Assembly (NCBI RefSeq): GCF_027923405.1
Contig: NZ_BQYI01000001.1
Coordinates: forward strand, 2,210,501 to 2,274,500
Direction of reading: 5' to 3'
DNA from: Paenibacillus sp. YYML68
GTDB lineage: Bacteria > Bacillota > Bacilli > Paenibacillales > NBRC-103111
DNA: 64,000 bases
The position numbers and the translations under genes were made by a program. Below the pieces are notes generated by a model. It saw only the letters and a program-made list of their open reading frames with translations. It made no database searches and was not told where the DNA came from. Each line of letters opens with the position of its first letter. Positions within the stretch are counted from its first letter, which is position 1. Below are positions 7,896 to 44,215 of this stretch, in pieces.

Positions 7896-8436
7896 GAAAT
7901 CCGAAGCTGGACAAGGGAGAACCCCTCCGACCTAAGCAATCATGAAGTGATTCACGACTAGCGTTGAGCAGGGAGGAACGAATGAGGACGGAATAGTTAG
8001 TTGGAGCGTGGAGTAATTGTCCTCATTCTAACGGTCGTGAACCACAGATTGCTAGGTCGGCGCATAATTTCTTAATTTTTCAAGGCTCTTGTTCAAGATC
8101 GATTCTAAAAACCGTTCATAATAGTTAGTTGGACAACGTGTTACGTTGTTGTTTTGAAGTTTGTATATGAACGGTTAAGAATCGATTTTTTGATTTCATT
8201 GGCGTGGAAGCTTGGAATTTCATATACAGGAACATAAACAAGTGGCGAGCAGCGATGGTATAATATGGAGTAACCTTCCACGCAAGGGTTGCGTTACTAA
8301 TGTTTACTCCTAAAAGCCTGCCACTTGTTAAACCTGTATATGAAATTCTAAAGAGCAAAGAAGTCAATGAAATCAAAAGATGAACAAGAGCAACGGAAAT
8401 TAAGAAATTATGCTGGGGTTTAATCAGATGGACTTC
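7896..8436 (+). ncRNA. Cassette 6: candidate structured RNA, family B (reference copy)
   Basis: No gene is visible, but there is a nested set of inverted repeats. 7927-7941 pairs with 8047-8060 (CCGACCTA...TAGGTCGG), 7951-7958 with 8034-8041, 7980-7989 with 8019-8028 (GAATGAGGAC/GTCCTCATTC), 8062-8078 with 8397-8413 (17 bp, no mismatch), 8085-8094 with 8382-8391, 8098-8120 with 8166-8186, 8215-8230 with 8333-8348 (16 bp) and 8238-8246 with 8320-8328. The ends pair as GTTATATGAA...TTCATATAAC. The strand is assumed from the cassette direction. Twelve copies occur in the window. I cannot place it in a known RNA family from memory. Confidence 0.6.
8259..8264 (+). promoter_or_regulatory. Possible -10 box inside family B cassette
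   Basis: TATAAT in the context GATGGTATAATATGG is kept in the family B copies, in the loop of the ACAAGTGGC/GCCACTTGT stem. The best -35 (TAAACA, 18 bases upstream) is poor. It could drive the next cassette or be structural only. Confidence 0.3.
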
Positions 8437-8596
8437 ATATAACAACGTATTCACGCGGCGGTCGCTGAAGCTCCCTTGGTCTGCTGGAAGATGGTTCGGG
8501 GAAGTGAATCAGGCAGACAATCCTGCGAGGCTAAGTCTTCGACCCGGCGCTACGCGCCTTAAGCCTCTCGGGTTCGTGAATACAAGAACGTTAGGC
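8437..8596 (+). repeat. attC site 6 (long class)
   Basis: R'' ATATAAC, L boxes GTATTCAC/GTGAATAC, R' GTTAGGC. Ends the first family B cassette and starts the second toxin-antitoxin cassette. Confidence 0.9.
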
Positions 8597-8615
8597 GAAA
8601 TTGCTGGGGACAATG

Positions 8616-8647
8616 AAAATAAAAAAGCCTATCAGAGTATGATAGAC
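8616..8647 (-). terminator. Terminator of toxin-antitoxin copy 2
   Basis: Same stem, loop and U-tract as at 3477, reading out of the minus-strand toxin gene. Confidence 0.75.
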
Positions 8648-8652
8648 TTAAT

Positions 8653-8919
8653 TCAGGTCTTATAGACATCACCACGGGAGCCAATTTTTATTACATGGAT
8701 TACTAATATTTCTTCTTCAACTGTGTAAACAACTCGATATGAGCCAACACGCAAACGGAAATCTTGGAATGTTCCTTGCATTCTTTTAATATCAAGTTCA
8801 GGATGGAAAGGATCTTCGGCTAATATTTGTAAGTGTTGTATAATTCGCGTTCGCATTTTCTTATCTAATTTCTGTAGGTACTTTAGTGCACTTTTATCAA
8901 TTTCAATTGAGTAAGTCAT
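8653..8919 (-). CDS. RelE/ParE-family toxin (copy 2)
   Basis: Predicted protein identical to the toxin at 3514, with the same ATG overlap with its antitoxin and the same terminator. The whole cassette 7 (8591 to 9247) is a duplicate of cassette 3, including the short-class attC. Identity over coding and non-coding bases points to recent copying within the array rather than separate capture. A second copy of the antitoxin makes loss of any one copy harmless, so addiction acts only when all copies go. Confidence 0.88.
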   Translation of the reverse strand: MTYSIEIDKSALKYLQKLDKKMRTRIIQHLQILAEDPFHPELDIKRMQGTFQDFRLRVGSYRVVYTVEEEILVIHVIKIGSRGDVYKT

Positions 8920-9139
8920 CAATAACGTCCTTAAGTTTTATGGTTTCACCACGCTTAAATGCTTCTTTTGCTTTTCTAATATCGTCTAGATCCTCCTGAG
9001 TTGTAGGTTCATCATCCCAAGGAATAAACCGATGATCACTCTTGTGAATTAATTTTTCAAGAAAGTCAGCTGCCATCGGGAGAGCATCCTCAGGTAATTG
9101 TTGAATCAACTTATTAAGTTGGTCCTTTGTTACTGCCAT
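8903..9139 (-). CDS. Antitoxin (copy 2)
   Basis: Identical to the antitoxin at 3764: 78 acidic residues, start ATG with AGGTGG upstream and a TATAAT box at 9173-9178. It overlaps the toxin start by 17 bp. Confidence 0.8.
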   Translation of the reverse strand: MAVTKDQLNKLIQQLPEDALPMAADFLEKLIHKSDHRFIPWDDEPTTQEDLDDIRKAKEAFKRGETIKLKDVIDDLLN

Positions 9140-9240
9140 TTCAAGCACCACCTAATCAGGAAAGTTATTTTAATTATAGCATGAAATTAGAAAATCATGA
9201 ATGGTGTTCTCGTGAGTAACTCGAAGAAGCCAGCAACATC

Positions 9241-9359
9241 GCCTAACACAGCATTCACGCATCGGGGCTGACGCCCCTCGGTCCGCGAGAAGTGTTTTCG
9301 AGGAAGAGGATTCAGCGGACAACCTCCTGCGGAGGTTCGTGAATGCAAGAACGTTATAT
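9241..9359 (+). repeat. attC site 7 (short class)
   Basis: R'' GCCTAAC, L boxes GCATTCAC/GTGAATGC, R' GTTATAT. Nearly identical to site 3 apart from the R' that belongs to the next cassette, as expected for cassette exchange at G/TT. Confidence 0.9.
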
Positions 9360-9901
9360 GAAATCCGAAGCTGGACAAGGGAGAACCCCTCCGACCTAAG
9401 CAATCAAGAAGTAATTCACGACCTGGGTTGAGCAGGGAGGAATGAATGAGGACGGAATAGTTAGTTGGAGCGTGGAGTGAATGTCCTCATTCTAACGGTC
9501 GTGAACCACAGATTGCTAGGTCGGCGCATAATTTCTTAATTTTTCAAGGCTCTTGTTCAAGATCGATTCTAAAAACCGTTCATAATAGTTAGTTGGACAA
9601 CGTGTTACGTTGTTGTTTTGAAGTTTGTATATGAACGGTTAAGAATCGATTATTGATTTCATTGGCGAGGAAGTGTGGAATTTCATATACAGGAACATAA
9701 ACAAGTGGCGAGCAGCGATGGTATAATATGGAGTAACCTTCCACGCAAGGTTTGCGTTATTCTAATGTTTACTCCTAAAAGCCTGCCACTTGTTAAACCT
9801 GTATATGAAATTCTAAAGAGCAAAGAAGTCAATGAAATCAAAAGATGAACAAGAGCAACGAAAATTAAGAAATTATGCTGGGGTTTAATCAGATGGACTT
9901 C
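9360..9901 (+). ncRNA. Cassette 8: candidate structured RNA, family B
   Basis: Close copy of the body at 7896 with the same stems. Small changes fall mostly in loops, such as TAATT to GAATG before GTCCTCATTC. It sits between two toxin-antitoxin cassettes. Confidence 0.6.
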
Positions 9902-10057
9902 ATATAACAACGTATTCACGCGGCGGGCTTGCGCCCTTGGTCTGCCAGAAGATGATTCGGGGAAGTAGATCAGGCAGACAATCCTGCGAGGCTAAGTCTT
10001 CGACCCGCCGCTCTGCGGCTTAAGCCTCTCGGATTCGTGAATACAAGAACGTTAGGC
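9902..10057 (+). repeat. attC site 8 (long class)
   Basis: R'' ATATAAC, L boxes GTATTCAC/GTGAATAC, tip CCGCCGCTCTGCGG, R' GTTAGGC. Confidence 0.9.
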
Positions 10058-10076
10058 GAAATTGCTGGGGACAATG

Positions 10077-10701: not shown

Positions 10702-10820
10702 GCCTAACACAGCATTCACGCATCGGGGCTGACGCCCCTCGGTCCGCGAGAAGTGTTTTCGAGGAAGAGGATTCAGCGGACAACCTCCTGCGGAGGTTCG
10801 TGAATGCAAGAACGTTATAT
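10702..10820 (+). repeat. attC site 9 (short class)
   Basis: R'' GCCTAAC, L boxes GCATTCAC/GTGAATGC, R' GTTATAT. Confidence 0.9.
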
Positions 10821-11362
10821 GAAATCCGAAGCTGGACAAGGGAGAACCCCTCCGACCTAAGCAATCAAGAAGTGATTCACGACAAGGGTTGAGCATGGAG
10901 GAAGGAATGAGGACGGAATAGTTAGTTGGAGCGTGGAGTGAATGTCCTCATTCTAACGGTCGTGAACCACAGATTGCTAGGTCGGCGCATAATTTCTTAA
11001 TTTTTCAAGGCTCTTGTTCAAGATCGATTCTAAAACCGTTCATATTAGTTAGTTGGACAACATGTTACGTTGTTGGTTTTGAAGTTTGCATATGAACGGA
11101 TAAGAATCGATTATTGATTTCATTGGCGAGGAAGTGTGGAATTTCATATACAGGAACATAAACAAGTGGCGAGCAGCGATGGTATAATATGGAGTAACCT
11201 TCCACGCAAGGGTTGCGTTATTCTAATGTTTACTCCTAAAAGCCTGCCACTTGTTAAACCTGTATATGAAATTCTAAAGAGCAAAGAAGAAAATGAAATC
11301 AAAAGATGAACAAGAGCAACGAAAATTAAGAAATTATGCTGGGGTTTAGTCAGATGGACTTC
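10821..11362 (+). ncRNA. Cassette 10: candidate structured RNA, family B
   Basis: Family B body with paired changes relative to the copy at 7896: the CCGTTCATA/TATGAACGG stem is kept while neighbouring loop bases differ (CATATTAGTTAG for CATAATAGTTAG). Confidence 0.6.
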
Positions 11363-11524
11363 ATATAACAACGTATTCACGCAGCGCTCGCTGGCGCTCC
11401 CTTGGTCTGCTGGAAGATGATTCGGAGAAGTGGATTCAGGCAGACAATCCTGCGAGGCTAAGTCTTCGACCCGGCGCTGAAGCGCCTTAAGCCTCTCAGA
11501 TTCGTGAATACGAAGACGTTATCT
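11363..11524 (+). repeat. attC site 10 (long class)
   Basis: R'' ATATAAC, L boxes GTATTCAC/GTGAATAC, tip CCGGCGCTGAAGCGCC, spacer CGAAGAC, R' GTTATCT. Confidence 0.9.
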
Positions 11525-12047: not shown

Positions 12048-12207
12048 AGATAACACCGCATTCACGCATCGGGTCTGACGCCCCTCGGTCTGCCAGGAGA
12101 TCATTCGGAGAAGCGGAATCAGGCAGACAACCCTGCGAGGCTAAGTCTTCGACCCAGCGCTGGCGCGCCTTAAGCCTCTCGGGTTCGTGAATGCAAGAAC
12201 GTTAAGT
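12048..12207 (+). repeat. attC site 11 (long class)
   Basis: R'' AGATAAC (own start GTTATCT), L boxes GCATTCAC/GTGAATGC, tip CCCAGCGCTGGCGCGCC, R' GTTAAGT. Confidence 0.9.
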
Positions 12208-12746
12208 GAAAGCCAGCCCGAAGTAAATCATGAAGAAAATCCCAACCCAATCCATCAAGAGGTTGATCCCGACCTGGGAGAAGCGAGGAAGTGTGAATCA
12301 GGACAAGTTAGTTTGATCGATGAAACACGATCAGTCCTGCTTCTAGATGTCGGGAACAACCGGATGGATTGAGTTGGGGCATAATTCCTTAATTTCTAAT
12401 GCCCTTGTTCGATCAATTCAGATTCATTCCTAATAGTTAGTTGACAACCAATTCTCGGTGTTGTCTTGGAACTATTATTAGGAATGAAGGAATTGATCTA
12501 GGATTTTGATTTCTTAGGCAGTGGAGTGAGGAACTTAGATACAGGATTGTTAACAAGTGACAGCCAGTAGGATGGATCATACGAGTAACCTGCCACGCCA
12601 AGATTGTCGTGCTAATGTTTACTCTAGAGGAGGCTGTCACTTGTAAAACCTGTATCTAAGTTCCAAAACACAAAGAAGTGAATGAAATCAAAATCGAACA
12701 AGGGCAAGGAAATTAAGGAATTATGCGGGTAGCTCAGCTGGCCATC
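12208..12746 (+). ncRNA. Cassette 12: candidate structured RNA, family A2
   Basis: ORF-less body with ends pairing as GTTAAGTGA-aa-GCCAGC with GCTGGC-ca-TCACTTAAC. It contains the same ladder of stems as the reference copy at 12904. One stem strand differs (GGGAACAACC for GGGATCAACC), leaving a single mismatch. Confidence 0.6.
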
Positions 12747-12903
12747 ACTTAACACCGTATTCACGCATCGGGCTGACGCCCTTGGTCTGCCAGGAGATAA
12801 TTCAGCGAAGTAAATTCAGGCAGACAACCCTGCGAGGCTAAGTCTTCGACCCGGCGCTACGCGCCTTAAGCCTCTCGGGTTCGTGAATACAAGAACGTTA
12901 AGT
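12747..12903 (+). repeat. attC site 12 (long class)
   Basis: R'' ACTTAAC, L boxes GTATTCAC/GTGAATAC, R' GTTAAGT. Joins two A2 cassettes, so here R'' and R' are fully complementary within the array. Confidence 0.9.
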
Positions 12904-13439
12904 GAAAGCCAGCCCGAAGTAAATCATGAAGAAGATCCCAACCCAATCCATCAAGAGGTTGATCCCGACCATAGAGAAGTGAGGAAGTGTGAATCAGGAC
13001 AAGTTAGTTTGATCGATGAAACTCGATCAGTCCTGCTTCTAAATGTCGGGATCAACCGGATGGATTGAGTTGGGGCATAATTCCTTAATTTCGAATGCCC
13101 TAGTTCGATCAATTCAGATTCATTCCTAATAGTTAGTTGACAACCAATTCTCGGCGTTGTCTTGGACCTATTAGGAATGAAGGAATTGATCGAGGACTTT
13201 GATTTCATAGGCAGGGGAGCGAGGAACTTAGATACAGGATAGTTAACAAGTGACAGTCAGTAGGATGGATCATACGAGTAACCTGCCACGCCAAGATTGT
13301 CGTGCTAATGTTTACTCTAGAGGAGGCTGTCACTTGTAAAACCTGTATCTAAGTTCCAAAACTCAAAGAGGTGAATGAAATCAAAATCGAACAAGGGCAA
13401 GGGAATTAAGGAATTATGCGGGTAGCTCAGCTGGCCATC
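12904..13439 (+). ncRNA. Cassette 13: candidate structured RNA, family A2 (reference copy)
   Basis: Stems seen: 12957-12969 with 13045-13057 (GGTTGATCCCGAC/GTCGGGATCAACC, 13 bp), AATCCATC with GATGGATT just outside it, 12995-13000 with 13030-13035 (CAGGAC/GTCCTG) enclosing GATCG/CGATC, about 13075-13090 with 13404-13419 (16 bp), 13223-13238 with 13342-13357 (GGAACTTAGATACAGG and its complement, 16 bp), and ACAAGTGACAG with CTGTCACTTGT. The order of stems matches family B, but most stem sequences differ. Confidence 0.6.
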
Positions 13440-13596
13440 ACTTAACACCGTATTCACGCATCGGGGCTGCGCCCCTCGGTCTACCAGAGGATTTTTCGGA
13501 GTAGCGGATTCAGCAGACAACCCTGCGAGGCTAAGTCTTCGACCCGGCGCTACGCGCCTTAAGCCTCTCGGGTTCGTGAATACATGAACGTTATAA
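13440..13596 (+). repeat. attC site 13 (long class)
   Basis: R'' ACTTAAC, L boxes GTATTCAC/GTGAATAC, spacer ATGAAC, R' GTTATAA. Confidence 0.9.
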
Positions 13597-16439: not shown

Positions 16440-16601
16440 CTATAACACCGTATTCACGCGGCGGGCCTGAAGGCCCTTGGTCTGCAGAGGCATTTTCCAA
16501 GAAGTTGATTCAGCAGACAACCCTGCGAGGCTAAGTGGCAGAGCCACCCGGCCCTTGCGGGCCTTAAGCCTCTCGGATTCGTGAATACGAAGACGTTATA
16601 T
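16440..16601 (+). repeat. attC site 15 (long class, variant tip)
   Basis: R'' CTATAAC (own start GTTATAG), L boxes GTATTCAC/GTGAATAC. The tip differs: GTGGCAGAGCCAC then CCGGCCCTTGCGGGCC, each self-complementary. R' GTTATAT. Confidence 0.9.
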
Positions 16602-17143
16602 GAAATCCGAAGCTGGACAAGGGAGAACCCCTCCGACCTGAGCAATCATGAAGTGATTCACGACTAGGGATGAGCAGGGAGGAACGAATGAGGACGAGTA
16701 GTTAGTTGGAGCGTGGAGTGATTGTCCTCATTCTATCGGTCGTGAACCACAGATTGCTAGGTCGGCGCATAATTTCTTAATTTTTCAAGGCTCTTGTTCA
16801 AGATCGATTCTAAAAACCGTTCATAATAGTTAGTTGGACAACGTGTTACGTTGTTGTTTTGAAGTTTGTATATGAACGGTTAAGAATCGATTTTTTGATT
16901 TCATTGGCGAGGAAGCGTGGAATTTCATATACAGGAACATAAACAAGTGGCGAGCAGCGATGGTATAATATGGAGTAACCTTCCACGCATGGGTTGCGTT
17001 ATTCTAATGTTTACTCCTAAAAGCCTGCCACTTGTTAAACCTGTATATAAAATTCCAAAGAGCAAAGAAGAAAATGAAATCAAAAGATGAACAAGAGCAA
17101 CGAAAATTAAGAAATTATGCTGGGGTTTAATCAGGTGGACTTC
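16602..17143 (+). ncRNA. Cassette 16: candidate structured RNA, family B
   Basis: Family B body. Relative to 7896 it has GAATGAGGACGAGTAGTTAG and CATTCTATCGG, changes outside the paired bases. The end GGTGGACTTCATATAAC pairs with the start. Confidence 0.6.
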
Positions 17144-17300
17144 ATATAACAACGTATTCACGCGGCGGGCTTGCGCCCTTGGTCTGCCAGAAGATAACTC
17201 GGAGAAGTGGACTCAGGCAGACAACCCTGCGAGGCTAAGTCTTCGACCCGGCGCTACGCGCCTTAAGCCTCTCGGGTTCGTGAATACGAAGACGTTATAT
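17144..17300 (+). repeat. attC site 16 (long class)
   Basis: R'' ATATAAC, L boxes GTATTCAC/GTGAATAC, R' GTTATAT; joins two family B cassettes. Confidence 0.9.
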
Positions 17301-17840
17301 GAAATCCGAAGCTGGACAAGGGAGAACCCCTCCGACCTAAGCAATCAAGAAGTGATTCACGACAAGGGTTGAGCATGAAGGAAGGAATGAGGACGAATAG
17401 TTAGTTGGAGCGTGGGGTGATTGTCCTCATTCTATCGGTCGTGAACCACAGATTGCTAGGTCGGCGCATAATTTCTTAATTTTTCAAGGCTCTTGTTCAA
17501 GATCGATTCTAAAAACCGTTCATAATAGTTAGTTGGACAACGTGTTACGTTGTTGTTTTGAAGTTTGTATATGAACGGTTAAGAATCGATTTTTTGATTT
17601 CATTGGCGAGGAAGCTTGGAATTTCATATACAGGAATGTAAACAAGTGGCGAGCATGGATGGTATAATATGTAGTAACCTTTAACGCAAGGGTTGCGTTA
17701 CTAATGTTTACTCCTAAAAGCCTGCCACTTGTTAAACCTGTATATGAAATTCCAAAGCGCAAAGAAGTAAATGAAATCAAAAGATGAACAAGAGCAACGA
17801 AAATTAAGAAATTATGCTGGGGTTTAGTCAGATGGACTTC
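17301..17840 (+). ncRNA. Cassette 17: candidate structured RNA, family B
   Basis: Subvariant with ACAGGAATGTAAACAAGTGGCG and GTAGTAACCTTTAACGC, also seen at 21536 and partly at 34657. All main stems are preserved. Confidence 0.6.
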
Positions 17841-17998
17841 ATATAACAACGTATTCACGCATCGGGGCTGCGCCCCTCGGTCTGCCGGAAGATGATTCGG
17901 AGAAGTGGATTCAGGCAGACAACCCTGCGAGGCTAAGTCTTCGACCCGGCGCTACGCGCCTTAAGCCTCTCGGGTTCGTGAATACAAGAACGTTATGT
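17841..17998 (+). repeat. attC site 17 (long class)
   Basis: R'' ATATAAC, L boxes GTATTCAC/GTGAATAC, R' GTTATGT. Confidence 0.9.
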
Positions 17999-18535
17999 GA
18001 AAGTCAACACGAAGTGTATCAAGAAGAAAGACCCAACCCAATCCATTGAGGTGAATATTCCCGACAAGCGAGAAGCGAGGAAGTGTGAATCAGGACAAGT
18101 TTGTTGTATCGGTGCTACTCGATAGGTCCTGCTTCTAGAGGTCGGGAACATTCGAATGGATTGGGTTGGTGCATAATTCCTTAATTTCTAATGCCCATGT
18201 TCGATCGAAAGAAGTTCATTCCTAATAGTTTGTTGACTAACGAGAATCGTTATTTATTGGTAGTATTAGGAATGAAGGGACGATCGAATCGATTTTGATT
18301 TCATAGGCAGGGAAGGGAGGAACTTTGATACAGGACGGTTGACAAGTGACAGCCAGTAGATGGGATCATGCGAGTAACCTGCCGCGCCAAGAATGGCGTG
18401 CTAATGTTTACTCTGGAGGAGGCTGTCACTTGTAAAACCTGTATCTAAGTTCCAAAACCCAAAGAAGCGAATGAAATCAAAATCGAACAAGGGCAAGAGA
18501 ATTAAGGAATTATGCGGGTAGCTCAGTTGACCATC
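17999..18535 (+). ncRNA. Cassette 18: candidate structured RNA, family A1
   Basis: First A1 body. Ends pair as GTTATGTGA-aa-GTCAAC with GTTGAC-ca-TCACATAAC. It keeps the A2 layout with other bases: AATCCATT/AATGGATT for AATCCATC/GATGGATT, and GAATATTCCCGAC/GTCGGGAACATTC for the 13-bp A2 stem. It carries TTGACA in GGTTGACAAGTGACAG where other copies have TTAACA. Confidence 0.6.
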
Positions 18536-18696
18536 ACATAACACCGTATTCACGCATCGGTCGCTGAAGCTCCCTCGGTCTGCCAGTAGATGATTCAGGG
18601 AAGTGGATTCAGGCAGACAATCCTGCGAGGCTAAGTCTCCGACCCGCCGCTCCGCGGCTTAAGCCTCTCGGATTCGTGAATACGAAGACGTTATCG
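18536..18696 (+). repeat. attC site 18 (long class)
   Basis: R'' ACATAAC, L boxes GTATTCAC/GTGAATAC, tip CCGCCGCTCCGCGG, spacer CGAAGAC, R' GTTATCG. Confidence 0.9.
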
Positions 18697-20016: not shown

Positions 20017-20135
20017 GCCTAACACAGCATTCACGCATCGGGGCTGACGCCCCTCGGTCCGCGAGAAGTGTTTTCGAGGAAGAGGATTCAGCGGACAACC
20101 TCCTGCGGAGGTTCGTGAATGCAAGAACGTTATAT
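20017..20135 (+). repeat. attC site 20 (short class)
   Basis: R'' GCCTAAC, L boxes GCATTCAC/GTGAATGC, R' GTTATAT. Confidence 0.9.
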
Positions 20136-20676
20136 GAAATCCGAAGCTGGACAAGGGAGACCCCTCCGACCTGAGCAATCATGAAGTGATTCACGACTAG
20201 GGTTGAGCATGGAGGAAGGAATGAGGACGGAATAGTTAGTTGGAGCGTGGAGTGAATGTCCTCATTCTAACGGTCGTGAACCACAGATTGCTAGGTCGGC
20301 GCATAATTTCTTAATTTTTCAAGGCTCTTGTTCAAGATCGATTCTAAAACCGTTCATATTAGTTAGTTGGACAACGTGTTACGTTGTTGGTTTTGAAGTT
20401 TGCATATGAACGGATAAGAATCGATTATTGATTTCATTGGCGAGGAAGTGTGGAATTTCATATACAGGAACATAAACAAGTGGCGAGCAGCGATGGTATA
20501 ATATGGAGTAACCTTCCACGCAAGGGTTGCGTTATTCTAATGTTTACTCCTAAAAGCCTGCCACTTGTTAAACCTGTATATGAAATTCTAAAGAGCAAAG
20601 AAGAAAATGAAATCAAAAGATGAACAAGAGCAACGAAAATTAAGAAATTATGCTGGGGTTTAGTCAGATGGACTTC
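20136..20676 (+). ncRNA. Cassette 21: candidate structured RNA, family B
   Basis: Family B body, closest to the copy at 10821 (CATATTAGTTAG, GTTGGTTTTGAAG). Stems intact. Confidence 0.6.
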
Positions 20677-20835
20677 ATATAACACCGCATTCACGCTGCG
20701 GGCTGGCGCCCTTGGTCTGCTAGGAGATCATTCGGGGAAGCGGATTCAGGCAGACAACCCTGCGAGGCTAAGTCTGGCGACCCGGCGCTAACGCGCCTTA
20801 AGCCTCTCGGGTTCGTGAATGCAAGAACGTTATGT
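20677..20835 (+). repeat. attC site 21 (long class)
   Basis: R'' ATATAAC, L boxes GCATTCAC/GTGAATGC (not the GTATTCAC form usual after family B), branch tip GGCGACCCGGCGCTAACGCGCC, R' GTTATGT. Confidence 0.9.
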
Positions 20836-21374
20836 GAAAGTCAACACGAAGTGTATCAAGAAGAAAGACCCAACCCAATCCATTGAGGTGAATATTCCCG
20901 ACAAGCGAGAAGCGAGGAAGCATGAATCAGGACAAGTTTGTTGTATCGGTGCTACTCGATAGGTCCTGCTTCTAGAGGTCGGGAACATTCGAATGGATTG
21001 GGTTGGTGCATAATTCCTTAATTTCTAATGCCCTTGTTCGATCGAAAGAAGTTCATTCCTAATAGTTTGTTGACTAACGAGAATCGTTATGATTTGGTAG
21101 TATTAGGAATGAAGGGAACGATCGAATCGATTTTGATTTCATAGGCAGGGAAGCGAGGAACTTTGATACAGGATGGTTAACAAGTGACAGCCAGTGGATT
21201 GGATCATACGAGTAACCTGCCACGCCAAGAATGGCGTGCTAATGTTTACTCTGGAGGAGGCTGTCACTTGTAAAACCTGTATCTAAGTTCCAAAAACTCA
21301 AAGAAGCGAATGAAATCAAAATCGAACAAGGGCAAGGAAATTAAGGAATTATGCGGGTAGCTCAGTTGACCATC
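20836..21374 (+). ncRNA. Cassette 22: candidate structured RNA, family A1 (reference copy)
   Basis: Stems: AATCCATT/AATGGATT, GAATATTCCCGAC/GTCGGGAACATTC (one mismatch), CAGGAC/GTCCTG, CTATCGAGT-like pairing around GTATCGGTGCTACTCGATA, GCATAATTCCTTAATTTC with its complement before the 3' end, TCATTCCTAATA/TATTAGGAATGA, GGAACTTTGATACAGG with CCTGTATCTAAGTTCC (one mismatch) and ACAAGTGACAGCC/GGCTGTCACTTGT. No gene. Confidence 0.6.
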
Positions 21375-30996: not shown

Positions 30997-31158
30997 ATAT
31001 AACAACGTATTCACGCAGCGCTCGCTGGCGCTCCCTTGGTCTGCTGGAAGATGATTCGGAGAAGTGGATTCAGGCAGACAATCCTGCGAGGCTAAGTCTT
31101 CGACCCGGCGCTGAAGCGCCTTAAGCCTCTCGGATTCGTGAATACGAAGACGTTATAA
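30997..31158 (+). repeat. attC site 33 (long class)
   Basis: R'' ATATAAC, L boxes GTATTCAC/GTGAATAC, tip CCGGCGCTGAAGCGCC, R' GTTATAA. Confidence 0.9.
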
Positions 31159-32538: not shown

Positions 32539-32555
32539 ATGCAAGAACGTTAAGT
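32393..32555 (+). repeat. attC site 35 (long class, variant branch)
   Basis: R'' AGTTAAC (own start GTTAACT), L boxes GCATTCAC/GTGAATGC. Branch AAGGCTAAG/CTTAAGCCTT, with both strands changed. Tip GTGGCGGAGCCAC then CCGGCGCTGCGCGCC. R' GTTAAGT. Confidence 0.9.
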
Positions 32556-33094
32556 GAAAGCCAGCCCGAAGTAAATCATGAAGAAAATCCCAACCCAATC
32601 CATCAAGAGGTTGATCCCGACCTGGGAGAAGCGAGGAAGTGTGAATCAGGACAAGTTAGTTTGATCGATGAAACACGATCAGTCCTGCTTCTAGATGTCG
32701 GGAACAACCGGATGGATTGAGTTGGTGCATAATTCCTTAATTTCGAATGCCCTAGTTCGATCAATTCAGATTCATTCCTAATAGTTAGTTGACAACCAAT
32801 TCTCGGTGTTGTCTTGGAACTATTATTAGGAATGAAGGAATTGATCTAGGATTTTGATTTCAAAGGCAGTGGAGCGAGGAACTTAGATACAGGATGGTTA
32901 ACAAGTGACAGCCAGTAGGATGGATCATACGAGTAACCTGCCACGCCAAGATTGTCGTGCTAATGTTTACTCTAGAGGAGGCTGTCACTTGTAAAACCTG
33001 TATCTAAGTTCCAAAACACAAAGAAGTGAATGAAATCAAAATCGAACAAGGGCAAGGAAATTAAGGAATTATGCGGGTAGCTCAGCTGGCCATC
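32556..33094 (+). ncRNA. Cassette 36: candidate structured RNA, family A2
   Basis: A2 body, nearest to the one at 12208; stems as in the reference copy at 12904. Confidence 0.6.
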
Positions 33095-33257
33095 ACTTAA
33101 CACCGTATTCACGCATCGGGTCTGCGCCCCTCGGTCTGCAGGAAGATTTTTCGAAGTAGCGGATTCAGCAGACAACCCTGCACTGGCTAAGTCTGACGAC
33201 CCGCTCGCTAACGCTCACTTAAGCCAGTGAGGGTTCGTGAATACAAGAACGTTATGT
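33095..33257 (+). repeat. attC site 36 (long class, variant branch)
   Basis: R'' ACTTAAC, L boxes GTATTCAC/GTGAATAC, branch CACTGGCTAAG/CTTAAGCCAGTG like site 26, R' GTTATGT. Confidence 0.9.
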
Positions 33258-33796
33258 GAAAGTCAACACGAAGTGTATCAAGAAGAAAGACCCAACCCAA
33301 TCCATTGAGGTGAATATTCCCGACAAGCGAGAAGCGAGGAAGCATGAATCAGGACAAGTTTGTTGTATCGGTGCAACTCGATAGGTCCTGCTTCTAGAGG
33401 TCGGGAACATTCGAATGGATTGGGTTGGTGCATAATTCCTTAATTTCTAATGCCCTTGTTCGATCGAAAGAAGTTCATTCCTAATAGTTTGTTGACTAAC
33501 GAGAATCGTTATGATTTGGTAGTATTAGGAATGAAGGGAACGATCGAATCGATTTTGATTTCATAGGCAGGGAAGCGAGGAACTTTGATACAGGATGGTT
33601 AACAAGTGACAGCCAGTGGATTGGATCATACGAGTAACCTGCCACGCCAAGAATGGCGTGCTAATGTTTACTCTGGAGGAGGTTGTCACTTGTAAAACCT
33701 GTATCTAAGTTCCAAAAACTCAAAGAAGCGAATGAAATCAAAATCGAACAAGGGCAAGGAAATTAAGGAATTATGCGGGTAGCTCAGTTGACCATC
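33258..33796 (+). ncRNA. Cassette 37: candidate structured RNA, family A1
   Basis: A1 body directly followed by a near-identical copy. It differs by GGTGCAACTCGATA for GGTGCTACTCGATA in a loop. Confidence 0.6.
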
Positions 33797-33957
33797 ACAT
33801 AACACCGTATTCACGCATCGGTCGCTGAAGCTCCCTCGGTCTGCCGGTAGATGATTCAGGGAAGTGGATTCAGGCAGACAATCCTGCGAGGCTAAGTCTC
33901 CGACCCGCCGCTACGCGGCTTAAGCCTCTCGGATTCGTGAATACGAAGACGTTATGT
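33797..33957 (+). repeat. attC site 37 (long class)
   Basis: R'' ACATAAC, L boxes GTATTCAC/GTGAATAC, R' GTTATGT, joining the tandem A1 cassettes. Confidence 0.9.
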
Positions 33958-34496
33958 GAAAGTCAACACGAAGTGTATCAAGAAGCAAGACCCAACCCAA
34001 TCCATTGAGGTGAATATTCCCGACAAGCGAGAAGCGAGGAAGCATGAATCAGGACAAGTTTGTTGTATCGGTGCTACTCGATAGGTCCTGCTTCTAGAGG
34101 TCGGGAACATTCGAATGGATTGGGTTGGTGCATAATTCCTTAATTTCTAATGCCCTTGTTCGATCGAAAGAAGTTCATTCCTAATAGTTTGTTGACTAAC
34201 GAGAATCGTTATGATTTGGTAGTATTAGGAATGAAGGGAACGATCGAATCGATTTTGATTTCATAGGCAGGGAAGCGAGGAACTTTGATACAGGATGGTT
34301 AACAAGTGACAGCCAGTGGATTGGATCATACGAGTAACCTGCCACGCCAAGAATGGCGTGCTAATGTTTACTCTGGAGGAGGTTGTCACTTGTAAAACCT
34401 GTATCTAAGTTCCAAAAACTCAAAGAAGCGAATGAAATCAAAATCGAACAAGGGCAAGGAAATTAAGGAATTATGCGGGTAGCTCAGTTGACCATC
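33958..34496 (+). ncRNA. Cassette 38: candidate structured RNA, family A1
   Basis: Tandem duplicate of cassette 37; very few differences, so the duplication is recent. Confidence 0.6.
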
Positions 34497-34656
34497 ACAT
34501 AACACCGTATTCACGCATCGGTCGCTGAAGCTCCCTCGGTCTGCCGTAGATGATTCAGGGAAGCGGATTCAGGCAGACAATCCTGCGAGGCTAAGTCTCC
34601 GACCCGCCGCTACGCGGCTTAAGCCTCTCGGATTCGTGAATACGAAGACGTTATAT
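34497..34656 (+). repeat. attC site 38 (long class)
   Basis: R'' ACATAAC, L boxes GTATTCAC/GTGAATAC, R' GTTATAT. Confidence 0.9.
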
Positions 34657-35197
34657 GAAATCCGAAGCTGGACAAGGGAGAACCCCTCCGACCTGAGCAA
34701 TCATGAAGTGATTCACGACTAGGGTTGAGCATGGAGGAAGGAATGAGGACGGAATAGTTAGTTGGAGCGTGGAGTGATTGTCCTCATTCTAACGGTCGTG
34801 AACCACAGATTGCTAGGTCGGCGCATAATTTCTTAATTTTTCAAGGCTCTTGTTCAAGATCGATTCTAAAAACCGTTCATATTAGTTAGTTGGCCAACGT
34901 GTTACGTTGTTGGTTTTAAAGTTTATATATGAACGGATAAGAATCGATTTTTGATTTCATTGGCGAGGAAGCGTGGAATTTCATATACAGGAATGTAAAC
35001 AAGTGGCGAGCATGGATGGTATAATATGGAGTAACCTTTAACGCAAGGGTTGCGTTACTAATGTTTACTCCTAAAAGCCTGCCACTTGTTAAACCTGTAT
35101 ATGAAATTCCAAAGCGCAAAGAAGTAAATGAAATCAAAAGATGAACAAGAGCAACGAAAATTAAGAAATTATGCTGGGGTTTAGTCAGATGGACTTC
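34657..35197 (+). ncRNA. Cassette 39: candidate structured RNA, family B
   Basis: Family B body of mixed subvariant (ATGTAAACAAGTGG and GGAGTAACCTTTAACGC). Its attC is the one hit by the transposon. Confidence 0.6.
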
Positions 35198-35429
35198 ATA
35201 TAACACCGCATTCACGCTGCGGGTGTCGCCGCTCACTTCCAATGTCGGAAGATGGGCGGCTATTTCTCATATACGCTGACGGTACAGCAAGGATATAATT
35301 GGCGGAGGGGCAGCCTGAATGTGCCGACAATCATAAGGAGTTAAGGCGATTGACAAAAAAAACAGGGAGACGTCAAGGTTTGGCGGCCTCGTCTCCCTGT
35401 TCACCACAGCTTTCGCCTCTATTATCGTA

Positions 35430-39104: not shown

Positions 39105-39262
39105 GTCTAACACCGCATTCACGCATCGGGCTGACGCCCTCGGTCTGCCAGAAGATAATTCGGAGAAGTGGATTCAGGCAGACAACCCTGCGAGGCTAAG
39201 TCTTCGACCCGGCGCTGACGCGCCTTAAGCCTCTCGGGTTCGTGAATGCAAGAACGTTATAT
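39105..39262 (+). repeat. attC site 40 (long class)
   Basis: R'' GTCTAAC (own start GTTAGAC at 38537), L boxes GCATTCAC/GTGAATGC, R' GTTATAT. Confidence 0.9.
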
Positions 39263-39804
39263 GAAATCCGAAGCTGGACAAGGGAGAACCCCTCCGACCT
39301 AAGCAATCAAGAAGTGATTCACGACCTGGGTTGAGCAGGGAGGAACGAATGAGGACGGAATAGTTAGTTGGAGCGTGGAGTGAATGTCCTCATTCTAACG
39401 GTCGTGAACCACAGATTGCTAGGTCGGCGCATAATTTCTTAATTTTTCAAGGCTCTTGTTCAAGATCGATTCTAAAACCGTTCATATTAGTTAGTTGGAC
39501 AACGTGTTACGTTGTTGGTTTTGAAGTTTGCATATGAACGGATAAGAATCGATTATTGATTTCATTGGCGAGGAAGTGTGGAATTTCATATACAGGAACA
39601 TAAACAAGTGGCAAGTAGCGATGGTATAATATGGAGTAACCTTCCACGCAAGGGTTGCGTTTTTCTAATGTTTACTCCTAAAAGCCTGCCACTTGTTAAA
39701 CCTGTATATGAAATTCCAAAGCGCAAAGAAGTAAATGAAATCAAAAGATGAACAAGAGCAACGAAAATTAAGAAATTATGCTGGGGTTTAGTCAGATGGA
39801 CTTC
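39263..39804 (+). ncRNA. Cassette 41: candidate structured RNA, family B
   Basis: Family B body with AAGTGGCAAGTAGCG in the loop and GTTTTTCTAATG; it combines the 5' part of one subvariant with the 3' part (CCAAAGCGCAAAG) of another, suggesting recombination between copies. Confidence 0.6.
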
Positions 39805-39961
39805 ATATAACACCGCATTCACGCTGCGGGCTGGCGCCCTTGGTCTGCTAGGAGATCATTCGGGGAAGCGGATTCAGGCAGACAACCCTGCGAGGCTAAG
39901 TCTTCGACCCGGCGCTACGCGCCTTAAGCCTCTCGGGTTCGTGAATGCAAGAACGTTATGC
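39805..39961 (+). repeat. attC site 41 (long class)
   Basis: R'' ATATAAC, L boxes GCATTCAC/GTGAATGC, R' GTTATGC. Confidence 0.9.
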
Positions 39962-40584: not shown

Positions 40585-40699
40585 GCATAACACCGCATTC
40601 ACGCATCGGGCTGACGCCCTCGGTCGCAGACGTAGATTCGAAGAAGTGGTTGCTGCGACAACCTCCTCCGGAGGTTCGTGAATGCGAGAGACGTTATAT
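40585..40699 (+). repeat. attC site 42 (short class, variant)
   Basis: R'' GCATAAC (own start GTTATGC), L boxes GCATTCAC/GTGAATGC, stem GTCGCAG/CTGCGAC in place of GTCCGC/GCGGAC, CCTCCGGAGG tip, spacer GAGAGAC, R' GTTATAT. Confidence 0.88.
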
Positions 40700-41242
40700 G
40701 AAATCCGAAGCTGGACAAGGGAGAACCCCTCCGACCTAAGCAATCATGAAGTGATTCACGACTAGGGTTGAGCAGGGAGGAACGAATGAGGACGGAATAG
40801 TTAGTTGGAGCGTGGAGTAATTGTCCTCATTCTAACGGTCGTGAACCACAGATTGCTAGGTCGGCGCATAATTTCTTAATTTTTCAAGGCTCTTGTTCAA
40901 GATCGATTCTAAAAACCGTTCATATTAGTTAGTAGGACAACGTGTTACGTTGTTGATTTTGAAGTTTGTATATGAACGGATAAGAATCGATTATTGATTT
41001 CATTGGCGAGGAAGTGTGGAATTTCATATACAGGAACATAAACAAGTGGCGAGCAGCGATGGTATAATATGGAGTAACCTTCCACGCAAGGTTTGCGTTA
41101 TTCTAATGTTTACTCCTAAAAGCCTGCCACTTGTTAAACCTGTATATGAAATTCTAAAGAGCAAAGAAGTCAATGAAATCAAAAGATGAACAAGAGCAAC
41201 GAAAATTAAGAAATTATGCTGGGGTTTAATCAGATGGACTTC
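40700..41242 (+). ncRNA. Cassette 43: candidate structured RNA, family B
   Basis: Family B body, near twin of the one at 30454 including TTAGTAGGACAACG. Confidence 0.6.
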
Positions 41243-41404
41243 ATATAACAACGTATTCACGCAGCGCTCGCTGGCGCTCCCTTGGTCTGCTGGAAGATGA
41301 TTCGGAGAAGTGGATTCAGGCAGACAATCCTGCGAGGCTAAGTCTTCGACCCGGCGCTGAAGCGCCTTAAGCCTCTCGGATTCGTGAATACGAAGACGTT
41401 ATCC
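41243..41404 (+). repeat. attC site 43 (long class)
   Basis: R'' ATATAAC, L boxes GTATTCAC/GTGAATAC, tip CCGGCGCTGAAGCGCC, R' GTTATCC. Confidence 0.9.
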
Positions 41405-41875: not shown

Positions 41876-41933
41876 GGATGGAGTAAGACAAGAAACAGAT
41901 TGATGTAAGTAACTCTAAGTAGTCAGGGGCATC

Positions 41934-42097
41934 GGATAACACCGTATTCACGCTGCGGTCGCTGACGCTCCCTTGGTCTGCCAGGGGAATTTCGAGGAAG
42001 CGGATTCAGGCAGACAACTCCTGCGAGGCTAAGTCCTTCGGACCCGGCGCTAACGCGCCTTAAGCCTCTCGGGTTCGTGAATACAAGAACGTTATAA
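41934..42097 (+). repeat. attC site 44 (long class)
   Basis: R'' GGATAAC, L boxes GTATTCAC/GTGAATAC, R' GTTATAA. Nearly identical to site 1. Confidence 0.9.
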
Positions 42098-42206
42098 GAA
42101 AGTCGGGCTAGACAAAACAAGAGCAATTTAAAATCTTGAATGAGTAAATTGATTCTTATAGAACCAACAGTACAGCAAGTAGAGCATTTCTAAAAAAGTT
42201 AGTCTA
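42098..42206 (+). ncRNA. Cassette 45 left part: fragment of family D
   Basis: First 109 bp of a family D body (as at 29014), cut at AAAAGTTAGTCTA by an IS3 element. The rest of family D is missing. Confidence 0.6.
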
Positions 42207-42281
42207 CCCCCTGTGTCACAATAGTTGTCGTACCCCTCGATAAAAAGTATAGTAGAACCAGAGAGGCAGAGGTGACGGACG

Positions 42282-42779
42282 ATGGCTAGATACAGTGAGG
42301 AATTGAAACGCAACATACAACTACGAATGATCCCCCCGCATAATGAATCTGTGAGTCAGATTGCAAGAGACAGCGGCCTGTCCGAAGGGACGCTGTACAA
42401 GTGGCAAAAAGAAGCCCGAGCGAACGGCGCTGTCGTTCCAGGTGGCGGAGCAGAGCCCGACAAATGGAGTAGTCGGGATAAGTTTTCGATTGTGCTGGAA
42501 ACCGCTACGTTGAGCGAAGTCGAACTGGCCGAATACTGTCGTGCATAAGGACTCTACGCAGAACAGATTGAAGCTTGGCGGGATGCTTGTATGCAAGCCA
42601 ATGGTGGACTCGCCCAACAGGCATCCCAGCTGCAAAAAGAACTCCGAACTAAAGAGCGAGAAATGAAAACGCTCACTCGGGAGTTAAAACGAAAGGAAGC
42701 TGCTCTAGCCGAAACGGCAGCGCTTCTCGTGCTGCGAAAAAAGGCACAGTCGATCTGGGGGGACCAAGAGGACGCATGA
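42282..42779 (+). pseudogene. IS3 orfA with premature stop
   Basis: Matches the 165-residue OrfA at 24248, but codon 89 is TAA: the copy reads GTGCATAAGG where the intact one reads GTGCCAAAGG, two adjacent substitutions. Residues 1-88 keep the first helix-turn-helix; the coiled-coil part continues in frame from about 42549. This copy probably needs OrfA from copy 1 to move. Confidence 0.88.
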
Positions 42780-43846
42780 TCAGTGCCTCAGATCGACGAA
42801 TGGCCATGGAACTGATCCAAGAAGCAGTAGATGCTGGAGCCAAAGAAGAGGTGGCATGCCAAGATATCGGATTAACGCAGCGGACCTTGCAGCGGTGGCG
42901 CAAAGAGGGCGCACCGCAAGAGGATCAACGGCCGCATGCGGTAAGGCCTGCCCCATCCCACAAGCTAAGTGAAGTGGAACGACAACAGATTATCGAGGTC
43001 GTGAATCAGCCGGCATACAAGAGCCTTCCACCTAGCCAAATCGTACCACGACTGGCTGATGAGGGTGTCTACATGGCGTCCGAATCGACATTCTATCGCG
43101 TAATGCATGCTCATGGACAGCAGCACCATCGAGGTCGCAGTAAGAAGCCTGTTTCGAAGCCGTTAACGAGCCATTGTGCTGTGGCGGCCAACCAAGTGTG
43201 GATGTGGGACATCACCTGGCTACCTGGTCCTGTGAAGGGTTTATTCTACTACCTCTATCTCATCCTGGATCTATTCAGCCGAAAAATCGTAGGCTGGGAG
43301 GTATGGAATGAAGAATCCGCGGAGCATGCGAGCACATTGGTTCGTCGAACGGTCCTGAGCGAACAGTGCGTTGTGCGCAAGGAGCCGCTGGTCCTGCATT
43401 CGGATAACGGGAGTCCGATGAAGGGTGCCACTCTACTTGAAACGTTATACAGCCTAGGAATCACGCCCTCCAAAAGCAGGCCGCGTGTCAGCAACGATAA
43501 CCCTTACGCCGAGTCGGTGTTTCGCACCTGCAAATACCGCCCCAGCTACCCGTTACATGGATTTAAGTCGACGACAGAAGCCCGTGAATGGGTACGGAAG
43601 TTCGTCCATTGGTATAACACTGAGCATCACCACAGCGGGCTTAATTTCCTGACCCCTAACCAAAGGCATAAGGGACTTGCTGAACAGATTTTTGAGAAGA
43701 GAAAGCGAGTGTACGAACAAGCTAGACAGGACAACCCAAGGCGGTGGTCCGGGAAGATAAGGAACTGGAGTCTAGACGAACGAGTGTATCTTAATCCCGA
43801 GAAAGTCCAGCACTCCATAGCTACAACAACGGCGACACAAGCCTGA
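42776..43846 (+). CDS. IS3-family transposase OrfB (copy 2)
   Basis: 356 residues, the same protein as at 23181 except for two substitutions near residues 26-29 (EEVACQDIG for EEAACQEIG). All catalytic motifs (WDITWLPGP, LHSDNGSP, NPYAESVFR) are kept. It overlaps the broken orfA by ATGA. Confidence 0.92.
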   Translation: MISASDRRMAMELIQEAVDAGAKEEVACQDIGLTQRTLQRWRKEGAPQEDQRPHAVRPAPSHKLSEVERQQIIEVVNQPAYKSLPPSQIVPRLADEGVYMASESTFYRVMHAHGQQHHRGRSKKPVSKPLTSHCAVAANQVWMWDITWLPGPVKGLFYYLYLILDLFSRKIVGWEVWNEESAEHASTLVRRTVLSEQCVVRKEPLVLHSDNGSPMKGATLLETLYSLGITPSKSRPRVSNDNPYAESVFRTCKYRPSYPLHGFKSTTEAREWVRKFVHWYNTEHHHSGLNFLTPNQRHKGLAEQIFEKRKRVYEQARQDNPRRWSGKIRNWSLDERVYLNPEKVQHSIATTTATQA

Positions 43847-43898
43847 TTGACTCTATTTAATTTTCAAAGATTCACGACAACTATATTGACAAACACCG

Positions 43899-44215
43899 TT
43901 CCTAATAGTTTGTTGACTAACGAGAATCGTTATTTGTTGGTAGTATTAGGAATGAAGGGACGATCGAATCGATTTTGATTTCTTAGGCAGGGAAGGGAGG
44001 AACTTTGATACAGGACGGTTGACAAGTGACAGCCAGTAGATGGGATCATACGAGTAACCTTCCACGCCAAGAATGGCGTGCTAATGTTTACTCTGGAGGA
44101 GGCTGTCACTTGTAAAACCTGTATCTAAGTTCCAAAACTCAAAGAAGCGAATGAAATCAAAATCGAACAAGGGCAAGGAAATTAAGGAATTATGCGGGTA
44201 GCTCAGTTGACCATC
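43899..44215 (+). ncRNA. Cassette 45 right part: fragment of family A1
   Basis: The last 317 bp of an A1 body, starting at TTCCTAATAGTTTGTTGAC, including the GGAACTTTGATACAGG and ACAAGTGACAGCC stems. Its 5' half is missing, so the outer stems cannot form. Confidence 0.6.

Follow-up and report, generated by a model that had tools for sequence, protein, structure and literature searches.

The chromosome of Paenibacillus sp. YYML68 carries a cassette array in which gene-less bodies predicted to fold end to end into a rod recur in many copies, and comparison of these copies suggests that selection keeps their folded shape, not a protein. We favour, at a probability of roughly 45%, the reading that the rods are a cis-acting single-stranded-DNA structure through which an excised cassette would become a closed dumbbell whose capture is favoured. 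The stretch of DNA analysed, termed the window, comprises 64,000 nt (GCF_027923405.1, NZ_BQYI01000001.1:2,210,501-2,274,500, forward strand; GTDB lineage Bacteria; Bacillota; Bacilli; Paenibacillales; NBRC-103111). Its genome is labelled G000, and other G-numbers denote the other genomes compared.

Rod cassettes in the window

The window sits in a chromosomal integron-like array of 73 cassettes that starts approximately 23 kb upstream of it. A first-pass annotation had counted about two dozen gene-less bodies; indeed, 23 rod bodies start in the window (12 of family A, four of B1 and seven of B2) and the tail of an additional B2 body is present, complete copies being 550-560 nt long. The whole array holds 36 rod bodies in three families (A 14, B1 11, B2 11), 34 of them complete, and rods make up about half of it. 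When a B2 body was searched against its own genome for copies of the scattered kind that a MITE or IS-derived element may have, all matches fell within 2187098-2254999, inside the array. Like integron gene cassettes, the rod copies have attC-type sites, complete with R''/R' boxes, at their boundaries, and the gene-less bodies are a class of integron cassettes, not an isolated system of the window.

All rods of the window lie on the plus strand. Family A bodies occur at 7889..8443 (cassette 7890-8590), 9353..9908, 10814..11369, 16595..17150, 17294..17847, 20129..20683, 21529..22082, 26080..26635, 30447..31003, 34650..35204, 39256..39811 and 40693..41249, and B1 bodies at 12201..12753, 12897..13446, 25381..25930 and 32549..33101. 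The B2 bodies were located at 17992..18542, 20829..21381, 27514..28065, 29747..30299, 33251..33803, 33951..34503 and, split by an IS (transposase ORFs 23181-24251 and 24248-24745, both on the minus strand), 22984..25231. The B2 tail (43899..44218) is a 3' part behind another IS (transposase 42776-43846), and its host cassette begins as another gene-less cassette. The arms were mapped in the A copy at 16595. Arm I (16633..16765; CCGACCTGAGCAATC ... GATTGCTAGGTCGG) carries TAGTTAGTTGGA in its apical loop. Arm II (16767..17120) is closed by a 19-bp helix (GCATAATTTCTTAATTTTT ... AAAATTAAGAAATTATGC) and divides into branch IIa (16802..16892), with TAGTTAGTTGGA again in the apical loop, and branch IIb (16895..17083), whose outermost pairing is TTGATTTCATT ... 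AATGAAATCAA. The attC site of this cassette, given as an example, spans 148 bp (17147..17294, plus strand).

Fold and constraint

The rod fold consists of one 19-20-bp helix and many helices of 7-18 bp whose order is constant across copies, in agreement with the long stems in fixed order noted earlier, and all 34 complete copies fold far beyond shuffles, which the gene-bearing cassettes tested do not. With RNA parameters and true dinucleotide shuffles, z was -12.98 for an A copy and -15.11 for a B2 copy, and none of 100 shuffles was as good. Array-wide z-scores were crude, being based on two-base block shuffles with 6-15 repeats, as were the first-position values below. At eight shuffles per sequence, the 34 complete rods (MFE -209 to -246 kcal/mol) gave z -9.3 to -29.9, and 30 other array cassettes with bodies of up to 900 nt gave -0.3 to -6.2, the three lowest of the latter representing one 197-nt gene-less hairpin body; nine of the 73 cassettes, including two split B2 copies, were too long for this test. 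When bottom strands were folded as circular DNA, 33 rods reached -0.19 to -0.24 kcal/nt and 30 other cassettes -0.08 to -0.19; this set is without the A copy at 34651, after which no short attC follows. Another gene-less cassette of the array (29008, 31153) had z -1.06 in one test and -2.5 to -3.7 with crude block shuffles.

The earlier statement that stem sequences differ between families while pairing is kept was borne out. A and B1 are approximately 64% identical and maintain pairing: 122 aligned pairs contain 19 double and 5 single changes, compared to 3.8 and 35.4 expected if the two sides changed independently, with the reservation that these pairs were chosen as paired in both folds, which favours an excess of double changes. 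Nine of the 19 double changes are transversions that have no wobble intermediate. Within families, 61 of 1108 paired columns are variable versus 82 of 555 unpaired ones (Fisher p 8e-10), so that variation is about 2.7 times rarer in paired columns, and recent changes comprise 64 pair-breaking versus 2 double ones. Identity was higher among bodies than among the attC sites that accompany them (0.963 v 0.904, 0.965 v 0.915 and 0.981 v 0.962). The heptamer GTTAGTT occurs twice per copy in 11 of 14 A and 11 of 11 B1 bodies, and GTTTGTT twice per copy in nine of nine B2 bodies.

Coding capacity, Rfam families and promoter-like sites

No ORF of at least 30 aa is common to all of 14 A copies (best 11/14) or 11 B1 copies (best 8/11). 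Three ORFs of 42-52 aa occur in nine of nine B2 copies, and none of their stop columns recurs in at least 70% of A or B1. As no ORF is shared by all copies, a protein-coding reading of the rods was rejected.

The annotation had matched the bodies to no known large RNA class and proposed an Rfam search, which returned no family. Rfam, taken to include OLE, GOLLD, ROOL, HEARO and introns, gave no covariance-model match over the gathering cut-off in the window or in the family D loci L081, L040 and L046 (a searched set without L082 and L083), and a permissive run on 2161 bases returned miRNA/snoRNA noise only. The annotation is to be corrected in that the bodies are integron cassettes whose outermost helix is the attC R''/R' pairing. 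Promoter-like sites in the 2.1 kb scanned numbered 3, versus 3.2 in shuffles. Both A copies within these 2.1 kb carry a TATAAT directly behind a TG, a site that matches a promoter at 10 of 12 positions and that the one B2 copy scanned lacks.

Integrase and cassette ends

The gene at the head of the array encodes a 377-aa tyrosine recombinase and ends 103 bp before the first cassette. The protein scored above the cut-off of NCBIfam NF040815 (tyrosine recombinase/integron integrase) and, at 213.9, below that of TIGR02249 (integron integrase; 265). It has an N-terminal extension and lacks the IntI-specific I2 insertion (21 residues versus 63 in V. cholerae IntI4), and none of 7 aligned relatives has a longer segment at this position. 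Because I2 is absent, single-strand attC recombination is only putative here. In G290, G021 and G044 the integrase gene is split or interrupted by stops, and no close integrase gene is present in G340; rods are still present in all of them.

In all three families the rod closing helix is the attC R''/R' pair. The start box is the complement of the cassette's own R' in three of three rod families and in 23 of 24 distinct other cassettes. Beyond the R box, start and end are complementary over a run of at least 6 bp in 21 of 24 distinct other cassettes versus 22 of 552 crossed pairs. The corresponding counts were 15/24 v 23/552 in G044, 5/6 v 0/30 in G021, 3/3 v 0/6 in G056 and 0/4 v 0/12 in G105; among the rods, B1 and B2 show such complementarity and A does not. 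This pairing beside attC exists only once the cassette ends are joined.

In arrays with rods and an adjoining integrase, the first cassette is a rod in G000, G021 and G290 (z -11.3, -13.2 and -17.4), and the G044 array starts with a weaker gene-less fold of another type (z -5.5). The first bodies of eight other arrays (G135, G056, G047, G117, G105, G057, G009 and G038) gave z 0.6 to -3.2 and included no rod. In G117 and G038 no start box could be located, and the fold was computed on the sequence that follows the integrase; the body measured in G105 lies 557 bp after the integrase match, and those 557 bp had z -2.1; the first bodies of G056 and G057 are 1317 and 979 nt long. The set is without G041 (unusable z of -79) and G050 (contig ends).

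Family D and distribution

A further 16 gene-less cassettes, family D, have a layout similar to that of A and B and a different sequence; they occur in G021, G044, G290 and G340 with up to 10 copies per array, which brings rod-type cassettes to five species of one order in total. Double changes that keep pairing were found at 50 of 121 D pairs, versus 24.0±2.8 in shuffled alignments and at most 18 in slid ones, scored on structures predicted from the same alignments. Covariation above these column and slide controls is equally expected of a structured RNA and of a DNA structure. Wobble intermediates lie on the bottom strand (e.g. columns 10/545, CG:7 UG:5 UA:2), and the arm II loop carries GTTAG or GTTAC in 13 of 16 copies. 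The lower variability of paired columns, the compensatory changes between A and B and the covariation in D together argue for selection on a folded single strand.

The D arm I loop resembles the attC apical loop: all four of the 16 bodies compared scored above shuffles (24-32 versus a maximum of 20-25). The motif was not above shuffles in A, B1 or B2 bodies, and an attC-derived origin of A and B is unsupported. The comparison as a whole drew on 25 of 44 G000 attC sites and on 6 shuffles each. A D model (R1) run over 28 sources recovered the 16 D copies and no A or B copy; D is tied to A and B by layout only.

Searched against 99 relatives, an A body matched its own genome and, weakly and over a single short stretch, G066, and a B2 body searched against 392 genomes of the order matched its own genome only. 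A D body gave matches in 16 of 392 genomes of the order at E ≤0.01, among them the four D genomes; in the remaining 12 they were short (E 8e-4 or worse), and G360, the one of these inspected, contains no D body and has gene-bearing cassettes with a similar 3' end. Among 394 genomes of its family, a G290 D body matched G290 and G340 only. R1 found nothing in 398 genomes of the class, a result of little weight as this sample holds no known positive. Exact-pattern scans gave 0 matches in viral contigs, in both cases, and two in genome contigs that proved unrelated on inspection; the scanned set may omit the window's own genome.

Strand preference

Integrons recombine the bottom strand. D column pairs include 16 A.C versus 5 G.T (p 0.027), which places the wobble on the bottom strand; in these strand and wobble counts four G290 bodies were 10 bases short, having ended at a wrong TAAC. 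A later alignment had three of the four at full length and dropped one of its 16 rows because the G290 copy at 8996 nearly repeats the one at 8364. Shared descent inflates a mismatch count of 42:2, which is not read as a probability; counting by column is more independent. In A/B, column pairs were 6 A.C v 4 G.T, and changes within families (20 G.T v 12 A.C) ran in the opposite direction to D, so that the A/B strand signal is weak or contrary. The A top strand folds better than the bottom strand with RNA parameters (-215 v -200), and DNA parameters give mostly small differences between the strands. The G-U share is 10.6% on the top and 2.7% on the bottom strand of A, 2.6-4.8% on either strand of B1 and B2, and 7-8% on the bottom and 3-4% on the top strand of D. 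The attC stems, used as a single-strand-DNA control, gave 29 A.C v 22 G.T when pooled, with 15 v 4 in G021 and G290, as in D, and 9 v 17 in G000 and G044.

Of the selection on a folded RNA or single-stranded DNA proposed in the first-pass annotation, the folded single strand is upheld by constraint and covariation. The fold described there was that of the top strand; in D, where the strand can be told, the wobble lies on the bottom one. Since that wobble falls on the strand that integrons recombine, a role at the DNA level is at least as likely as one at the RNA level.

Discussion

The cis-acting DNA structure that we favour would work as follows. The bottom strand of the cassette would fold into a two-armed rod. 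One and the same R''/R' pairing closes this rod on one side and the attC hairpin on the other. Because this pair is shared, attC hairpin and body rod would stand back to back in an excised circle or incoming single strand and join into one largely paired dumbbell. The dumbbell may protect the single strand and hold attC folded for capture at attI, and rod cassettes could thus spread as passengers that need no gene. It is our inference that DNA is what folds, that the folded form is present in the cell and that folding raises integration. In favour of this, none of the 34 complete copies has lost the fold, although 36 copies of a product acting in trans would be superfluous; paired columns vary less than unpaired ones, and bodies are more alike than their attC sites; the rod is closed by the R box pair, and other cassettes also have complementary starts and ends; rods form stronger circular bottom-strand DNA folds than other cassettes; D shows covariation and bottom-strand wobble and an arm I loop resembling the attC apical loop; and a rod is frequently first beside the integrase gene. 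Against it count the wobble bias, clear only in D and reversed in changes within A/B families, the better fold and 10.6% G-U of the A top strand, the mixed attC-stem control, the integrase without I2 and its damaged or missing genes where rods remain, and the lack of the attC motif in A, B1 and B2, which only layout ties to D. More tentatively, the rods may be a new mobile element, a cassette with a single-strand shape as its sole content, in an unusual integron lineage (its integrase has an N-terminal extension and no I2, and its attC stem reaches further on the cassette side) where the dumbbell would be preferentially captured at attI. A gene-less class that dominates two arrays and is selected for folding alone would mean either that integrons harbour passengers favoured for their mobility through DNA shape or that a large undescribed RNA is spread by them; on either reading the role of single-stranded cassette DNA becomes directly testable.

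The main alternative, somewhat less probable, is that the cassette encodes a structured non-coding RNA of large size (420-560 nt) that acts in trans through GTTAGTT-type apical loops and is made from the bottom strand in D and possibly the top strand in A. Covariation far over shuffles and slides, the bottom-strand wobble intermediates in D and the recurring apical-loop heptamer (GTTAGTT/GTTTGTT; GTTAG or GTTAC in D) fit such an RNA, and the first cassette beside the integrase is the copy that a Pc-like promoter would transcribe. However, large RNAs are usually richer in G-U pairs than the rods, the A top strand excepted; promoter-like sites did not exceed shuffles in the 2.1 kb scanned; the fold occupies the body from R'' to R' and leaves only attC for a bottom-strand promoter; and constraint on 34 redundant copies is unexpected of a trans-acting RNA. 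Alternatively, a rod within the array could zip closed as far as its R''/R' stem and thereby withdraw the R boxes from the attC sites on both sides, which would make excision rarer and the array more stable. This would agree with a closing helix that takes the boundary R'' and its own R', but leaves 36 copies and the first position unexplained and is improbable. Slightly less credible still are promoter cassettes that drive downstream genes, as gene-less cassettes do in Vibrio and Treponema. Vibrio gene-less cassettes are mostly promoter-active on the sense strand, and a section heading of that study states that their promoters cannot be identified in silico (PMC11014356, in the parts on these cassettes); the TG-TATAAT of both scanned A copies would fit. 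Against this, the site is missing from the scanned B2 copy, site numbers equal those of shuffles, and a promoter has no need of 500 nt of kept pairing. A rod without function, in which template switching at quasi-palindromes during replication copies arm onto arm and so mimics compensation, is the most improbable of all: long near-perfect helices and transversions in 9 of 19 A-B1 double changes are as it predicts, but the 64 pair-breaking versus 2 double recent changes imply that such copying is infrequent, and paired columns are less variable, not just covarying.

Integron cassettes are usually seen as gene carriers and gene-less ones as promoter carriers. OLE, GOLLD, ROOL and HEARO RNAs are several hundred nt long with many conserved helices and no ORF; rods share length, helices and the lack of an ORF, and differ in having no Rfam match, very long perfect helices, few G-U pairs and a bond to integron cassettes. 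Gene-less group II introns exist as well. Rods have no Rfam intron match and form the entire cassette body, R'' through R', unlike the integron-associated group II introns, with which they share an association with cassettes (PMC7923331). In the relevant parts of PMC11014356 and PMC6557892, the gene-less ("promoter" or ORF-less) cassettes of Vibrionaceae and those of Treponema integrons likewise have no gene, are bounded by attC and lie in an array. The Vibrio cassettes were characterised by promoter activity, and the main text of PMC11014356 uses neither the term "secondary structure" nor "non-coding RNA", whereas rods are marked by an end-to-end covarying fold and have been amplified to half of one array. 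Compared to attC sites, rods are 3-4 times longer, lie on the cassette side of the R stem and yielded no R/L box pair of their own. As in attC sites, it is the single-strand fold that is selected while the sequence is free to change, the R''/R' stem is shared, and D arm I carries the attC apical-loop motif.

Gene-less cassette bodies with a conserved fold

In the whole array, 36 cassettes start with a body of one of three gene-less families, termed A (14), B1 (11) and B2 (11). Complete bodies (34 of 36) span 550-560 nt and the other two are B2 bodies split by IS elements; the window contains 23 bodies and one B2 tail. Identity was 0.93-1.0 within a family, 0.84 between B1 and B2 and about 0.64 between A and B, and a B2 body had no match in its own genome beyond the array. 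All three families are predicted to fold into a common layout, a rod in which a closing helix of the R boxes is followed by an A-rich lead, arm I and arm II, the latter consisting of a 19-20-bp closing helix and the branches IIa and IIb. An A copy folded on both strands. The heptamer GTTAGTT recurs in the apical loops of arm I and arm IIa, occurring twice in 11/14 A and 11/11 B1 bodies; the B2 version, GTTTGTT, occurs twice in 9/9 copies, both loops being changed alike. An IS with an integrase-core transposase (356 aa, rve) interrupts one B2 body (22985-25231). A second copy, at about 42206-43896, links the start of another cassette to the B2 tail (43899-44218), as if two IS copies had recombined.

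The first-pass annotation had described gene-less folded bodies in the window. These are real, and the case is stronger than stated. The fold was kept in all 34 complete copies. Within families, variable columns were rarer at paired (61/1108) than at unpaired positions (82/555; Fisher p = 8e-10). The further claim that pairing is kept while the sequence differs was borne out by A and B1: 122 aligned pairs, a set biased towards this outcome by being chosen as paired in either family's fold alike, showed 19 double and 5 single changes, where independence predicts 3.8 and 35.4. All five single changes include a G.T pair of the top-strand fold of A. We concluded that self-folding gene-less cassettes of this sort form a class that recurs, on a platform of known kind. 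As far as searched, this class is new: among the matches listed for open-access PMC full text, taken by titles and abstract starts and with most subscription papers and all preprints outside the scope, nothing concerned structured gene-less cassettes.

Array and integrase

The window covers positions 2210501-2274500 of a genome that is one contig of 5.09 Mb. Upstream of the array lie genes that we read as coding for an Xaa-Pro peptidase and for elongation factor P, which would fit a host of Bacilli type. They are followed by the gene for a 377-aa tyrosine recombinase (L018:9360-10493, upstream of the window); the array starts 103 bp beyond. By R'' boxes the whole array comprises 73 cassettes (on recount, 72 R'' intervals plus the first cassette at 2187098), some carrying IS insertions, and its attC sites are about 105-160 bp long. 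It lies at 2.19-2.26 Mb in + orientation, and dnaA is located at 251 kb. Given a replication origin close to dnaA, the attC bottom strands would be on the leading-strand template, the orientation described for sedentary chromosomal integrons (PMC11023631).

At its N terminus the integrase is extended by about 85 aa, which include an RRW..W.xP-type motif and gave no Pfam match. We assume the motif to be HARP-like. The IntI-specific I2 insertion is absent, and none of 7 aligned relatives has a longer segment at its place; according to PMC7790495, integron integrases shifted to single-strand recombination by acquiring the I2 helix. Array and integrase possibly represent a distinct integron-like lineage. 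Among the matches listed in the same open-access full-text search, with the same limit of scope, nothing concerned integrons in this kind of host.

A similar family in other genomes and the folded strand

Of 104 genomes of the family, 13, the own one among them, gave a match to the integrase at E 1e-60 or better. Arrays of two integrase-bearing genomes contain a gene-less family of similar layout and other sequence, termed D, and a DNA search yielded further D cassettes in two genomes that belong to a different family within the order. The 16 copies are distributed over G044 (2), G021 (3), G340 (1) and G290 (10), where 9 of 13 bounded cassettes, and also the first cassette, are D. Fifteen copies had a z (fold energy against shuffles) of -8.7 or lower; the G340 copy reached -3.9 on the top strand, its bottom strand being better by 41 kcal/mol. 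Arm II is unbranched in D and branched in A and B. Homology between D and A/B lacks sequence support, since a D covariance model found none of the A/B copies. G044 carries an additional, weaker fold type (z -5.5 to -7.1). The integrase gene next to three D-bearing arrays (G290, G021, G044) has stops or is split.

In an alignment of 15 D rows, the bottom-strand structure showed kept double changes at 50/121 pairs (shuffled 24.0, sd 2.8, 0/500 as good; slides 7-18) and the top-strand structure at 38/107 (shuffled 19.6, sd 2.2, 0/500; slides 5-13), the structures being favoured over slides by prediction from the same alignments and 10/16 sequences being near relatives. For the top-strand structure, 7/500 shuffles matched the pair-type count. 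Watson-Crick-only folds of 19 sequences (3 consensus, 16 D) had 42 A.C, 2 G.T and 44 other small internal mismatches on the top strand, and 40 G.T and 5 A.C on the reverse complement. As these rows are largely related, column pairs were counted instead, giving 16 A.C versus 5 G.T in D (p 0.027) and 6 versus 4 in A/B (pooled p 0.029). The D consensus also folded better on the bottom strand (-92.4 versus -89.8), whereas B1 and B2 were almost strand-neutral, A folded better on the top strand, and changes inside the A/B families (20 G.T, 12 A.C) ran contrary to a bottom-strand bias. The folded strand is therefore likely the bottom strand in D, a claim limited to that family. With DNA parameters the strands were mostly little apart. 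Attachment-site stems, used as a single-strand-DNA control (124 distinct sites), gave 29 A.C, 22 G.T and 103 other mismatches, unevenly spread (A.C versus G.T: G021 and G290, 15 to 4; G056, 5 to 1; G000, the own genome, and G044, 9 to 17).

DNA or RNA

The bodies may work as cis-acting DNA or as RNA. We tentatively favour a cis-acting DNA structure, at a probability of about 0.45, because the rod closes via the attC R''/R' stem. In non-rod cassettes, starts and ends were complementary past the R box (run of 6 or more) in 21/24 distinct cases versus 22/552 crossed pairs, for example over 6-7 bp in cassettes 8591-9353 and 18691-19366, and a AAYTCGAAGAAG-like motif usually precedes the complementary stretch at the cassette 3' end. 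These ends are an extended attC stem formed only once the ends are joined; having meaning only then, they too argue for DNA. So do the circles of rod cassettes, with a predicted stability per base roughly double that of other cassette circles, the keeping of the fold by all complete copies despite redundancy, and the conservation of the bodies, which exceeds that of the attC sites of the same cassettes. Among the four arrays with such cassettes and an adjoining integrase gene, three had a rod first and the fourth a weaker gene-less fold, while 8 other arrays measured had neither; this position likewise points to DNA, as does the arm I loop of D, which repeats the attC apical loop in 4/4 bodies tested. 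A cassette standing first in the array would, however, equally be the one expressed, which would suit cassettes encoding a large structured RNA, as would the wobble intermediates in D and the recurring GTTAGTT-type loop. We consider such an RNA the less likely of the two readings; the low G-U share, except on the top strand of A, and the lack of a promoter signal weakly oppose it.

Other cassettes

A 763-bp cassette is repeated at 3452-4214, 8591-9353, 10052-10814 and 19367-20129; on its bottom strand (8653-9151, -) lie a gene for a ParE-type toxin and, upstream of it, a small gene with a weak DUF2281 match. A gene-less 343-bp cassette, with three copies in the array (7547-7889 and window positions -6890 and -2812), has a 197-nt body that contains a long hairpin and scores z -5.3 to -6.2. 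Another gene-less cassette, of about 630 nt (29008-29747, 31153-31894), contains GTTAGT repeats and folds little above shuffles (z -1.06; block shuffles -2.5, -3.7). One repeated cassette kind has tandem 12-bp repeats (GATTTTAAGAGC; 7061-7312, 28569-28772, 38891-39022). In G056, one of the other array-bearing genomes, a cassette encoding a 31-aa Hol_Tox (holin-like toxin) peptide (L038:6327-6834) has a strong fold (z -15) and resembles a type I toxin-like unit within an integron.
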